A stretch of DNA of 64,000 nucleotides from Chloroflexota bacterium (GTDB lineage Bacteria; Chloroflexota; Dehalococcoidia; UBA2979): the NCBI GenBank assembly GCA_003670575.1, contig QWRD01000001.1, positions 124,001 through 188,000 of the forward strand, in the 5' to 3' direction. This document shows positions 6,338-41,316 of the stretch, in pieces. The notes under the pieces are model-generated. The model was not told the origin of the DNA. It searched no databases and saw nothing but the letters and a program-made list of their open reading frames with translations. Each line of letters starts with the position of its first letter. The first letter of the stretch is position 1. Position numbers and translations under genes: made by a program.

Positions 6338-7558
6338 ATGCGATCGCTATTTGGTGAGTCGTGGATCAGTGCTTCGGTGGTGTTGCTGCTGCTGGGGCTG
6401 ACGTCCGGGTCGGTGCCGCTGGCGGGCCTTGGGCTGTTGGTATTCGGCACGGGTGGTCTCGCGCGGCTCTGGGTGCGGCTGTCGCTGGAGCGAGTGCGCT
6501 ACACGCGCGTGCTGCCAGAAAGCCGCGCATTCGTCGGCGAAACCGTGCGCGTCCTGCTGCGCATCGCGAACGAGAAGCTCATCCCCGTGCCTTGGGTTGA
6601 GGTGCGTGAGCAGTTCCCGGAGGCGATGCCCACGCCCGATGTCCACACACAACCGTCCGGCATCCCCGGCGTCGTCTTCATGAGCCGCAGCACCTCGCTC
6701 GGCTCGCACGAGGCGGTGCAGTGGCCGGTCACGTTGGAAGCGAAGGAGCGCGGGTTCTTTCGGCTCGGTCCCACGCGGTTGCGCGCCGGTGATTTGTTCG
6801 GGCTGTTCACGCGCGATGAAGAGGTGCCCGGCGGAGAGCGCGTCGTCGTGTACCCGCGCACGTATCCGCTGCCAGAACTTGGCCTCACCCGCGGGCGGCC
6901 GTTTGGCGATCGGTCAGGCGGATCGCGCATCTTCGAGGATCCGCTGCGCGTCGTTGGCGTGCGCGACTACGTAGCGGGCGACCCGCTGAAGCGCATCGAT
7001 TGGAATGCCACCGCGCGGCTCGGGCGGTTGCAGTCGCGGCTGTACGAGCCGTCGCGCACGCAGGCCGTGGTGGTGGCGCTGAACATCAGCACGATGGAGT
7101 TCTCCTGGCAGGGTTCCGATCCGGCGCTGCTGGAACGCAACGTGGTCGTCGCCGCCTCGGTGGCGCGGCAGGCGTTCGACGATCAGGCCGCGATCGGGCT
7201 GATCGCCAACGGCTCATTCCCGGACGCGGATCGCCCGATCCGCATCGGCACCGGGCGCAGGCCCGATCAACTCGTGCGCGTACTGGAAGCGCTCGCGATG
7301 ATCGCCGCGTACACCACGTCGAGCCTCTCGATGGAACTCGAGCGCCCCGGCCACGCGCTCCCCGCGGGCGCCACGATCGTCGTCGTCACATCGCTGATGC
7401 CGCCTGCGTTGGAGGCCACGTTGCGCCGACTGCGTAGCCAGGGCCATGCAGTGCACGTGCTGAAGACCTCGGACGGCGACTGGGACGCTGACCTTGCGGG
7501 CATCCCCACCACGTCGCTCGGTCTCACGATGCGCGCGTTGGAGGAGGCCACGCGATGA
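6338..7558 (+). CDS. DUF58 domain protein
   Basis: This 406-residue protein has two N-terminal membrane segments (about residues 8-45) followed by an Ig-like stretch and the DUF58 signature YVAGDPLKRIDWNATARLG, then a VWA-like C-terminal region. DUF58 proteins are usual partners of MoxR ATPases and are thought to act at the membrane. ATG 6338 is preceded by GGGGCGAGG; the longer upstream reading overlaps moxR and has no homology. Its stop overlaps the next gene start (ATGA at 7555-7558), so translation is coupled. Confidence 0.9.
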   Translation: MRSLFGESWISASVVLLLLGLTSGSVPLAGLGLLVFGTGGLARLWVRLSLERVRYTRVLPESRAFVGETVRVLLRIANEKLIPVPWVEVREQFPEAMPTPDVHTQPSGIPGVVFMSRSTSLGSHEAVQWPVTLEAKERGFFRLGPTRLRAGDLFGLFTRDEEVPGGERVVVYPRTYPLPELGLTRGRPFGDRSGGSRIFEDPLRVVGVRDYVAGDPLKRIDWNATARLGRLQSRLYEPSRTQAVVVALNISTMEFSWQGSDPALLERNVVVAASVARQAFDDQAAIGLIANGSFPDADRPIRIGTGRRPDQLVRVLEALAMIAAYTTSSLSMELERPGHALPAGATIVVVTSLMPPALEATLRRLRSQGHAVHVLKTSDGDWDADLAGIPTTSLGLTMRALEEATR

Positions 7559-38680: not shown

Positions 38681-39007
38681 TTGAACCAAGCGAATCAACG
38701 AATCTACGTGGGGAACCTTCCCTTCAGCGCACGTGAGGATGACGTGCGGCAGTTGTTTGCGCAGTACGGCGAGGTAGTCTCGGTCGTGCTTCCGACGGAT
38801 CGAGAGACGGGCCGACCGCGTGGGTTTGGCTTCGTGGAGATGTCTCCGGCGGACGCTCAAAAGGCCATCGACGGGCTGAACGGCAAGGACATGGACGGAC
38901 GCGCCCTGAACGTCAACCAGGCGCGCGAGCGTGAAGAGCGCCCACGTGGTGGTGGCTACGGTGGTGGCGGCTATGGCGGCGGCTACGGAGGTGGTCGCGG
39001 CCGCTAG
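38681..39007 (+). CDS. RRM-type RNA-binding protein with glycine-rich tail
   Basis: This 108-residue protein has one RNA recognition motif with RNP2 IYVGNLPF and RNP1 RGFGFVEM, then a short Arg/Gly/Tyr-rich tail (RGGGYGGGGYGG). It resembles the cold-shock-induced Rbp proteins of cyanobacteria and other bacteria, RNA chaperones. The TTG start is set by homology and by GGAG seven bases upstream; the overlapping ATG at 38677 is in another frame. A perfect terminator hairpin follows. Confidence 0.9.
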   Translation: MNQANQRIYVGNLPFSAREDDVRQLFAQYGEVVSVVLPTDRETGRPRGFGFVEMSPADAQKAIDGLNGKDMDGRALNVNQAREREERPRGGGYGGGGYGGGYGGGRGR

Positions 39008-39074: not shown

Positions 39075-39111
39075 ATATGTTGAAGGCCCGGATTCCGGGC
39101 CTTCAACATAT
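39075..39111 (+). terminator. Perfect 17-bp hairpin after the RRM gene
   Basis: ATATGTTGAAGGCCCGG, a three-base ATT loop, and the exact complement. It separates the RRM gene from the riboswitch transcript and works on either strand. Confidence 0.8.
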
Positions 39112-39209: not shown

Positions 39210-39224
39210 GGGGCTGTATCGCAG

Positions 39225-39380
39225 GCCCGCCTAATTCTCTGGCTCGCGCCAGAGGGCCGGGGGAACCAGTTCGGGGGCGAATCGCTTGCCGGAAGTGTCC
39301 GCACCAGCGGACCACCGTCCAGGCGAACGGTGCTTCCGCCGTAGCCCGTCAGCTAACCCCGTCGGCGTAGGAAGAACCTC
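39225..39380 (+). ncRNA. Cyclic-di-AMP (ydaO/yuaA-type) riboswitch
   Basis: The leader has the ydaO aptamer elements in order: a hairpin CTCTGGC-TCGC-GCCAGAG (39237-39254), CCGGGGGAACCA (39257-39268), GGGGGCGAATC (39273-39283), a variable arm with stems GTCCGC/GCGGAC and GGAAG/CTTCC, then CCCGTCAGCTAACCCCGTCG and GGCGTAGGAAGA (39345-39375). The block CCGTCAGCTAACC is the most conserved part of this class. The following AGAACC can pair with GGTTCT and CTC with GAG around the start-site GAGGGG (39396-39401), which would hide the ribosome-binding site, so control of translation of the glycosyltransferase is likely. Confidence 0.85.
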
Positions 39381-39408
39381 GCGCATTGGCGCAAAGAGGG
39401 GTTCTCTC

Positions 39409-41316
39409 ATGGCCATTCAGGCGCGCATCCGCGCGACCTCTGCTACCGATGTTGCTGATCGCAACGCGGAGCCGCTGCGGGTTGCTACTCCAGCGGTCGC
39501 CGGCGCATCGCCGGTGCTGGAACGGTTGCTGGCGGTGGTGCCCCTCACCATCACCCTGATGCTGTCCTCCGCGCTGTTCTGGATGCCGCTTGCCCAGGGC
39601 ACAGCAGGTTTCATCGCGGTCGCGCTGACACTCTTCTTCATCTACTGGGCGGTGCGCTCCTACCTGACGCTGCTGGGCTGCATCATCAGCATGCGGCGCA
39701 TCACGCGATGGGGACGGCGCGATTGGCGCGCGGAGTACCTCGACCGATTGGCGTCGCTGTCGCCGACGCAGCGCGCGCAGGCCGAGGCTTGGGATTGGGC
39801 TCGTCACCTCGTCGTCATCCCGAACTACAAGGAGGACGAGTCCGGGCTTCGACGGCTCCTACAGTCGCTTGCGGAGCAGTCCAACCCGCAACAAATGGTC
39901 GTTGTGCTCGCGATGGAGGCGCGCGAGGCGGATGCGCAGCGTAAGGCCACCCACCTGCTGCTGGAGTTCCGTGGACGCTTTGCGGACTGCTTCGCTTCGT
40001 ACCATCCCGCGGACCTCGAAGGTGAAGCGCCCGGCAAGGGCTCCAACGAGGCGTGGGGCGTCCGCCGCGCCTATGAGCGCCTGATCGAGGGTGCTGAGCA
40101 GCCCGCTGCGGAGCTCGCTCGCTACACCGTCACCAGCTGTGACGCCGACTCGATCTTCTCGCCGCACCACTTCGAGGCGTTGAACTTCCTCTTCCTCACC
40201 GCTCCGGATCGCTACCGCACCTTCTGGCAGCCCGCGATTACCAACTCCAACAACATCTGGGACATCCCGGCGCCGCTCCGCATCATGGAGGGTCTGGGAA
40301 GTGTGAACCGTCTCTCCAACCTCACGCTGCCGGTCACCATCCCGTTCCCGACATCGTGCTACACGTTGAGTTGGCAGATGCTCCACCTGGTCGACTACTG
40401 GGACGAGGAAGTGATCCCGGAGGACTGGCACATCTTCCTGAAGTGCTCGTTCGCGCTGGGTGACCGTGTGCGCATGCACTCCATGTACGTCCGCATTGGC
40501 AACGATTGCGTGCTCACGGACGGGTATTTCCGGACGCTGAAGGCGCGCTACCTCCAGACCGTTCGACACGCGTGGGGCTGCGTGGACCTGCCGTACGCAT
40601 GGCGCGGGTTCTGGCGCGGGTTCTCCCGACAGGGCAGCCCGCTCGGCTGGCGCCGGAGTCTCTCATTGGCTTTCTCGGTGACGCATGTCCACTCGCTCTG
40701 GGCTTCGCAGTGGTTCTTTGTCACGCTGGGCGTGACGGTGCCGACCTGGCTCGTCGTGCACGCGCAGGCGCCGATGCCGGAATGGTGGAGCGCGTCGACG
40801 TACTCCATCCCCGGCGTGTCGCTGCACCTGGGGGCGTTCGCGGACCCTGCCCGATGGCTGATCTGGGGCGTCGACGGGCTGTTTGACCCGGTGATGCGGT
40901 TCAGCCTGCCTGGGCTGATCGTGTCCAGTTGCCTGATCCCCCTGGTGGGGCTGGTGGTGTTGGAGTTGCGCGTTCGAGGCGAGCGGCCCGCGCACTTCTC
41001 GAATGTGGCATATGTGCGTCAGTTTCTGACGCTGTTCCTCATGGCGCCGATCACGCTCGTCTGGGGGGCGCTGCCGGCCGTGCAGGCCCAATGGCGGCTC
41101 GCGACCGGCAAGGGGTTGGTCTACCGCGTTGCGGAGAAGGGCACTCGCGAGAGTGTGCGCGCGGCGGCTTCCGGGCCGGTGGCCGTGCCAGGGGGCGCAG
41201 CCGTCGCGAGTGTGGCCGTCACCGCCGCCGACTACCAGGCGATGGTTCGCGCTGGCGTCATGTGCGAGGAGCCGACCCAGCGCGTCACCGTCGAGTCGGA
41301 CGTGTCCATCCTCTAG
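39409..41316 (+). CDS. Membrane glycosyltransferase (GT2 family), c-di-AMP controlled
   Basis: This 635-residue inverting glycosyltransferase has two N-terminal helices (about residues 38-90), a GT-A domain with HLVVIPNYKEDESGL, the metal-binding SCDADSIFSP, PEDWHIFLK (acidic base) and a QxxRW-like TVRHAWG, then four or more C-terminal helices. This layout resembles cellulose/glucan synthases that make and export polysaccharide. GAGGGG lies eight bases before ATG 39409. The c-di-AMP riboswitch in its leader suggests a wall- or osmolarity-related polymer. Its TAG stop shares CTAG with the opposing antiporter gene. Confidence 0.85.
   Translation: MAIQARIRATSATDVADRNAEPLRVATPAVAGASPVLERLLAVVPLTITLMLSSALFWMPLAQGTAGFIAVALTLFFIYWAVRSYLTLLGCIISMRRITRWGRRDWRAEYLDRLASLSPTQRAQAEAWDWARHLVVIPNYKEDESGLRRLLQSLAEQSNPQQMVVVLAMEAREADAQRKATHLLLEFRGRFADCFASYHPADLEGEAPGKGSNEAWGVRRAYERLIEGAEQPAAELARYTVTSCDADSIFSPHHFEALNFLFLTAPDRYRTFWQPAITNSNNIWDIPAPLRIMEGLGSVNRLSNLTLPVTIPFPTSCYTLSWQMLHLVDYWDEEVIPEDWHIFLKCSFALGDRVRMHSMYVRIGNDCVLTDGYFRTLKARYLQTVRHAWGCVDLPYAWRGFWRGFSRQGSPLGWRRSLSLAFSVTHVHSLWASQWFFVTLGVTVPTWLVVHAQAPMPEWWSASTYSIPGVSLHLGAFADPARWLIWGVDGLFDPVMRFSLPGLIVSSCLIPLVGLVVLELRVRGERPAHFSNVAYVRQFLTLFLMAPITLVWGALPAVQAQWRLATGKGLVYRVAEKGTRESVRAAASGPVAVPGGAAVASVAVTAADYQAMVRAGVMCEEPTQRVTVESDVSIL

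Follow-up and report, generated by a model that had tools for sequence, protein, structure and literature searches.

A cyclic di-AMP riboswitch precedes a membrane glycosyltransferase gene

In a 64,000-nucleotide stretch of contig QWRD01000001.1 from a Chloroflexota bacterium of the class Dehalococcoidia (the whole stretch is hereafter called the window), we identified a cyclic di-AMP (c-di-AMP) riboswitch directly upstream of a gene encoding a membrane glycosyltransferase of family 2 (GT2). The assignment of positions 39218-39408 to the c-di-AMP riboswitch class, which is already known, is confirmed. As far as our literature search shows, the GT2 target, its conservation in the bacterial class, the existence of two expression platform types and the overlap between the aptamer pseudoknot and the platform are new. 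We consider the case to be evenly balanced that this riboswitch is of the ON type and controls translation of a polymer synthase resembling BcsA and hyaluronan synthases (HAS).

A c-di-AMP riboswitch had been proposed at this place from the sequence alone (the sequence-only reading), and a search of the whole window against Rfam bears this out. The c-di-AMP riboswitch family RF00379 matches the forward strand with 49.3 bits (gathering threshold 38, E = 2e-8) over model positions 1-134, which is the full length of the model, and it is the sole Rfam match at gathering threshold in the 64 kb. A score under this threshold had been named in that reading as grounds for rejecting it, and the match clears the bar. 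A genome-wide run returns the same place. The aptamer motifs quoted in that reading are present (CCGGGGGAACCA at 39257, GGGGGCGAAT at 39273 and CCCGTCAGCTAACCCCGTCGGCG ending at 39367), and the proposed span of 39225-39409 fits, except that its first base is 7 nt into the Rfam match. All 12 pairs tested in P1, the core helix and the inner helix are standard pairs in the window leader. The match ends 29 nt 5' of the ATG of the GT2 gene (39409), leaving 39380-39408 as the expression platform.

The aptamer and the glycosyltransferase are conserved together

Close relatives of the locus were collected through a protein-only scan of a species-genome collection with six peptide patterns, an approach that reaches close relatives only. 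The scan yielded 39 glycosyltransferase (GT) loci at 48-61% identity in 37 genomes, 27 of these loci being labelled Chloroflexi or Dehalococcoidia and four Tepidiforma. RF00379 scores above cut-off directly upstream, on the same strand, at 38 of the 39 loci, and the only miss (L023; L numbers designate loci) has 51 bases of contig upstream. The complete genome of Tepidiforma flava YIM 72310 carries the aptamer-GT unit (L009).

We also examined a sample of 393 genomes of the class, which shares most genomes with the 39-locus set and is not independent of it. The GT is present at E = 1e-60 or better in 64 of these genomes. The aptamer lies directly upstream at 41 of the 42 close GT loci (40 genomes), 40 being among the aptamer matches listed and one (genome G440, locus L127) being found by an Rfam search; the 42nd close locus begins 43 bases away from the end of its contig. 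Among distant GT homologues of the class, the aptamer is found within 500 nt at at least 17 of 25 loci (24 genomes; among the matches listed). Of the remaining eight, three have an aptamer farther upstream (2.3-4.2 kb) and five lack one among the matches listed. Aptamers were assigned to GT loci on the basis of contig number and coordinates (genome G372 has three aptamers, two of which are among the matches listed). Outside the class, no aptamer was found at any of 19 distant GT loci, which come from 15 genomes in a phylum sample of 251; seven of these 15 carry RF00379 elsewhere. One distant out-of-class GT locus (L107, 3542-3631, forward strand) carries a cyclic di-GMP (c-di-GMP) riboswitch of another family (c-di-GMP-II-GAG, RF03169, 58.8 bits), apparently on the strand opposite to the GT.

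Setting aside frames that overlap the GT, no flanking open reading frame (ORF) family is found at more than 15 of the 39 loci (ORFs were defined mechanically, and several loci are short). On these grounds, conserved operon partners for the GT were rejected. The aptamer and the GT therefore look like a unit, and judging from these genomes it looks like an old one of the class.

The GT2 enzyme is predicted to resemble polysaccharide synthases

The sequence-only reading had predicted a membrane GT2 gene downstream of the aptamer. In agreement, the gene has an ATG at 39409, and its 635-amino-acid product (39409-41316) matches PF13632 with 40.1 bits in Pfam (cut-off 27); a search against NCBIfam returned no match. 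Two of the 39 relatives (L039 and L040) have cut genes and are not part of the protein alignment, which thus comprises 37 rows. The motifs SCDAD (243-247) and PED (337-339, within PEDW), which correspond to the DxD motif and the acidic base, are invariant in the 37 sequences, as are the Q, R, H, A and W of Q383xxR386H387AW.

An AlphaFold2 model based on this alignment reaches a predicted local distance difference test score (pLDDT) of 81.8 and a predicted template modelling score (pTM) of 0.81. The best PDB match of the model by Foldseek is a hyaluronan synthase (7sp8_A, E = 5.5e-9), and a bacterial cellulose synthase is also matched (4p00_A, E = 2.1e-7); TM-scores against hyaluronan and cellulose synthases are low (0.3-0.5). 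The top match in VIA-align is the cellulose synthase 9fnn_A (Z = 19.8, root-mean-square deviation 4.2 A over 367 residues in the model range 61-567, 11% identity). Because soluble GalNAc-transferases reach Z = 16-17 with about 250 residues aligned, we give more weight to how far the match extends across the membrane part than to its rank. By sequence, the single PDB relative is a weak match to Tamavidin2 (E = 0.12), and a profile search of the PDB found none.

The enzyme thus resembles BcsA and hyaluronan synthases in the predicted fold of its GT domain and membrane helices. In contrast, it is only 10-15% identical to them, Pfam scans find no PilZ domain (the c-di-GMP-binding domain of BcsA), and QxxRHAW replaces QxxRW, which is the motif of processive cellulose synthase. 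The best reading of the model is that the enzyme is a membrane polysaccharide synthase of the BcsA/HAS kind, and the predicted fold (AlphaFold2, Foldseek and VIA) supports the earlier suggestion that it may make a surface polymer. In two relatives (L028 4941-7052 and L037 4941-7052), the GT is 704 amino acids long and ends in a C-terminal cupin-like stretch; Cupin_2 is seen in two of the 37 members (in L028 with E = 1.1e-5 and 25.5 bits, under the cut-off of 27.2).

One gene family and one aptamer have two outputs

In the 39 close leaders, the distance from P1 to the start codon is 26-41 nt. One leader cut by a contig end (L018) was excluded from the whole-leader alignment and from the aptamer-forced and arm-pairing folds (38 leaders), and was included in the platform and pseudoknot tests. 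The sequence-only reading had noted that bases following the aptamer can pair with the GAGGGG of the start site, and this pairing is indeed possible, as the predicted fold of 39368-39408 has an energy of -16.4 kcal/mol (z = -3.3 relative to dinucleotide shuffles). In minimum-energy folds extending from P1 to the start, a GAGG-type Shine-Dalgarno (SD) sequence has two or more of its bases paired in 37 of the 39 close leaders, and 19 of the 39 beat dinucleotide shuffles at p<0.05. Moreover, hairpin arms pair better with their own partners (mean -10.43 kcal/mol) than with swapped ones (-8.49 kcal/mol, sd 0.35): none of 2000 permutations is as good (33 distinct leaders, kinship uncorrected). Examples of such arms are GAAGU..ACUUC as compared with GAAGA..UCUUC, and GGAACCC..GGGUUCC. 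A hairpin that pairs the SD sequence and whose arms fit each other best supports translational control, as had been suggested, and control of GT2 translation by the window riboswitch is supported.

We rejected the window hairpin as a terminator, as no T-run follows it on the forward strand. A loose terminator test is passed by four of the 39 close leaders. A signal scan gave one terminator-like site, on the minus strand (39396-39377), and no sigma-70-like promoter. The likely GT start, at a conserved place after the hairpin, is a codon other than ATG in 13 of the 39 leaders: CTG in L016, L022, L024, L027, L028, L037 and L040, TTG in L030-L033 and L036, and GTG in L005. L027 has no in-frame ATG, GTG or TTG near this place.

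The distant homologues have another type of platform. An intrinsic terminator directly follows P1 in 16 of the 17 distant aptamer-linked leaders (L087, L088, L090 and L149-L162), beginning 2-10 nt after it. At least three of the five bases of the purine tail that follows P1 are inside the terminator in 10 of these 16 leaders. Removal of the tail costs 14 of the 16 terminators 5-10 kcal/mol (e.g., from -12.7 to -3.0), while those of L090 and L158 lose little or nothing. For comparison, we used other riboswitches of the class, starting from 30 non-GT candidate loci (L001 and L043-L071) from which two that proved GT-linked and L068 were removed. Among the 27 retained, the same scan finds eight terminators, one of which overlaps the tail by at least three bases; two of the eight (L054 and L055) lie inside the next gene. 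One gene family and one aptamer are therefore combined with both transcriptional and translational platforms.

The pseudoknot tail is shared with the expression platform

Publications are cited here by PubMed Central (PMC) accession. The crystallised ydaO aptamer has a pseudoknot, and the RNA printed in PMC5393176 has a loop with CUCCUUC, and GAAGGAG comes right after P1; it is our own reading that these are the strands that form this pseudoknot. The corresponding strands of the window leader, CUUCC and GGAAG, pair at -6.1 kcal/mol. In GT leaders, the loop strand is located near core-17 to core-19 and the tail at core+20 or core+21, and other loop/tail pairs include CCUCC/GGAGG, CCUCU/AGAGG, ACCUUC/GAAGGU and CUUUCC/GGAAAG. 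Loop and tail pair at -3 kcal/mol or better in all 39 close and all 17 distant leaders, a mild bar for which three G-C-rich pairs suffice. When loops and tails are permuted, none of 5000 permutations is as good over the whole set (36 distinct pairs), and three of 5000 are for the distant leaders alone.

In the window and in most leaders, the platform hairpin has this same tail at its 5' base. On average, the tail pairs downstream with a probability of 0.83 across the 39 close leaders and of 0.73 across the 17 distant ones, and without it the mean platform fold of the close leaders goes from -14.8 to -8.8 kcal/mol. Because the purine strand of the pseudoknot often also serves as the 5' base of the platform structure (hairpin or terminator), the bound aptamer and the full hairpin would compete.

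ON or OFF

Under the mechanism that we propose, when c-di-AMP is low the tail GGAAG (39370-39374) would pair downstream and close a long hairpin over the SD sequence; in the distant homologues, the same pairing would complete the terminator instead. At high c-di-AMP, P1 would form together with the pseudoknot CUUCC-GGAAG, the tail would be taken from the base of the hairpin and the gene would be expressed, presumably resulting in more envelope polymer. A rule given in PMC9337991 bears on the sign of this control: an aptamer located apart from the terminator makes an OFF switch and an aptamer overlapping it an ON switch, and transcription assays agreed. As the platform of the GT leaders overlaps the aptamer, they would be ON switches by this rule. 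In the OFF layout described in the same text, the aptamer is apart from the regulatory stem and an antiterminator uses the P1/pseudoknot strand, whereas the window hairpin starts in the tail, at 39370. We conclude that the terminator-type distant leaders are probably ON switches, and that the ON sign is better supported for them than for the window leader. For the translational type of the window, folding leaves the sign undecided, which is why our overall assessment is an even one.

Several observations weigh against this mechanism. First, in nested folding the SD sequence has a mean unpaired value of 0.30 with the tail and 0.26 without it (start codon, 0.55 and 0.66), and forcing the aptamer to form only changes this value from 0.25 to 0.26. 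In the window leader, removal of the tail lowers the unpaired value of the SD sequence from 0.50 to 0.13, and the hairpin without its tail still folds at -11.2 kcal/mol. Second, for six of the 39 close leaders (L007, L009, L011, L012, L017 and L040; all but one are of the Tepidiforma kind), the fold does not surpass those of shuffled sequences; in L007, L009 and L012, a longer fold extends beyond the AUG. Third, of the 16 distant terminators, five contain one or two tail bases and one contains none. Fourth, the loop-tail energy observed in the close group taken by itself is equalled in 100 of 5000 permutations, and loops such as UAUCUCC give a pseudoknot of 3-6 pairs that is often bulged. Finally, the tail also pairs downstream in the 27 other riboswitches (mean 0.55), 18 of which are above 0.5, and the contrast with GT leaders is therefore one of degree.

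The alternative that survives best is an ordinary OFF switch, whose chances we place somewhat below even. The ligand would form P1 and the pseudoknot, the short upper stem CCUC-GAGG would close the SD sequence or keep it closed, and another pairing would free it in the absence of ligand. The tested c-di-AMP riboswitches described in the texts used repress, namely those of kdp in Bacillus thuringiensis, of nlpC in Corynebacterium glutamicum (PMC9960051), which is probably translational, and of Dehalobacter (PMC9337991), and this too weighs against an ON switch. The fuller pairing of the window SD sequence without the tail likewise favours an OFF switch, as do L030 (0.54) and L033 (0.62), in whose free ensembles the anti-SD arm pairs with the aptamer. 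However, this pairing is at most 0.09 in the free state of 34 of 38 leaders, for which reason we dropped a decoy strand (aptamer CGGGG pairing the anti-SD CCUCG without ligand), and the distant terminators use the pseudoknot strand, the reverse of the OFF layout in PMC9337991. An extended hairpin, in which CGU of P1 pairs with the AUG, was rejected as a general feature: it is seen in several leaders and not in all, and the mean start-codon change from 0.42 to 0.51 makes it a possible contribution only.

It is unlikely that the leader binds c-di-AMP and hardly regulates, the hairpin closing the start site with or without ligand and control being exerted elsewhere (for example, RNA stability or a protein factor). 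The computed SD pairing is nearly the same in both states, as this alternative would have it. Yet every close locus that could be tested retains the aptamer despite differing flanking genes, and both hairpin arms and pseudoknot strands match their native partners better than permuted ones. Finally, a degenerate aptamer that does not bind c-di-AMP, or binds another ligand, is very improbable: its score is low beside the 81.5 bits of a second RF00379 copy in the same assembly (a metagenome-assembled genome of 1.34 Mb, 67.6% complete), and no diadenylate cyclase (PF02457) was found in this incomplete genome, which also weighs against the proposed ON mechanism, but GGGGGCGAAUC and GCCCGUCAGCUAACC are identical to the crystallised aptamer of PMC5393176 (compared by eye), 36 of the 38 GT-linked copies score below 70 bits, and 32 of 35 genomes of family relatives have the cyclase.

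Comparison with known systems and possible physiological role

The GT leaders share the covariance model, P1, the core and the loop-tail pseudoknot with the RF00379 class at large. They differ from it in their target, a GT2 resembling polymer synthases, and in a platform whose start mostly lies within the pseudoknot tail and not at a distance from it. The tandem Na+/c-di-AMP riboswitch of Dehalobacter (PMC9337991) similarly has a c-di-AMP aptamer followed by a regulatory hairpin. There, however, the c-di-AMP aptamer is apart from the terminator and OFF, and it is the Na+ aptamer that overlaps its terminator and acts as an ON switch, the arrangement also seen in the GT leaders. The C. glutamicum nlpC riboswitch (PMC9960051) resembles the window leader in that it has no terminator, and its wall-related operon also contains a glycosyltransferase gene. 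In contrast, its first gene encodes a peptidase, it is reported to repress, and the element proposed to block the ribosome site is a freed CTCC rather than a hairpin like that of the window leader. In the literature used, which further includes PMC3766115, PMC2864571, PMC7266159, PMC6488665 and PMC9481103, c-di-AMP riboswitches serve mainly ion or osmolyte transport and wall remodelling. Our literature search, which did not extend to the genes listed in Nelson 2013, Block 2010 and Jones 2014, found no earlier report of an aptamer-GT2 link.

A conserved switch on a BcsA/HAS-like synthase would tie c-di-AMP directly to surface-polymer synthesis, maybe as an activating form. This would parallel the control of cellulose synthesis by c-di-GMP. 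Beyond this, the aptamer stays with one gene while the platform varies between transcriptional and translational kinds.

Other RF00379 targets suggest how the two controls might be combined. Elsewhere in the class, RF00379 precedes genes of the trehalose-phosphate-synthase type (GT20, PF00982) at L044, where the terminator is located 29 nt after P1 and clear of the tail, and at L048, where it begins 7 nt downstream of P1 and includes no base of the five-base tail tested. High c-di-AMP is described in PMC9337991 as a sign of no osmotic distress. Low c-di-AMP would thus favour an osmolyte, and high c-di-AMP an envelope polymer. We would give an even chance to the fuller proposal that c-di-AMP activates the polymerase through the strand shared by pseudoknot and platform, the same signal stopping osmolyte synthesis and starting envelope-polymer synthesis in one lineage.

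Features of the window and other riboswitch loci

The features of the riboswitch-GT2 locus are collected in Table 1. A 16-pair hairpin with no T-run (39076-39110, -28.5 kcal/mol, z = -7.2) is located between the gene of an RRM protein (38681-39007) and the riboswitch.

Table 1. Coordinates of the riboswitch and GT2 gene in the window.
Feature	Position	Strand	Evidence
c-di-AMP (ydaO/yuaA) riboswitch aptamer	39218..39379	+	RF00379, 49.3 bits
P1 5' strand CGCC	39228..39231	+	Rfam alignment
P1 3' strand GGCG	39364..39367	+	Rfam alignment
Core helix 5' strand CGGGG (partner CCCCG at 39357-39361)	39258..39262	+	Rfam alignment, scripted positions
Pseudoknot loop strand CUUCC	39333..39337	+	complementary to 39370-39374; loop-tail fit tested in 56 GT leaders
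Purine tail GGAAG (pseudoknot 3' strand and start of platform hairpin 5' arm)	39370..39374	+	
Expression-platform hairpin holding the SD sequence	39370..39407	+	-16.4 kcal/mol, z -3.3; arm-swap test
SD sequence GAGG, 13 nt before ATG	39396..39399	+	conserved leader-alignment columns; 2 of 4 bases paired in fold
Membrane GT2 glycosyltransferase, 635 amino acids, predicted polysaccharide synthase	39409..41316	+	PF13632, AlphaFold2, Foldseek, VIA

Among other loci, RF00379 precedes a group-1/family-4 glycosyltransferase gene at L051 (Pfam), L057 looking alike, and the gene of a nucleotidyltransferase/CDP-alcohol transferase fusion at L056. The other riboswitch of the genome studied here (L042, aptamer 7108-7247) precedes a gene (7291-7503) that encodes a 70-amino-acid zinc-ribbon-like protein (Zn_Ribbon_TF, below cut-off). 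A protein of this kind is encoded by the first gene at 16 of the 27 non-GT riboswitch loci, and all of them end in AGKQRRRQPSHGKLRL (zinc-ribbon loci: L042, L049, L050, L052-L055, L059, L062-L065, L067 and L069-L071). This apparently uncharacterised protein is a very conserved target of c-di-AMP riboswitches.

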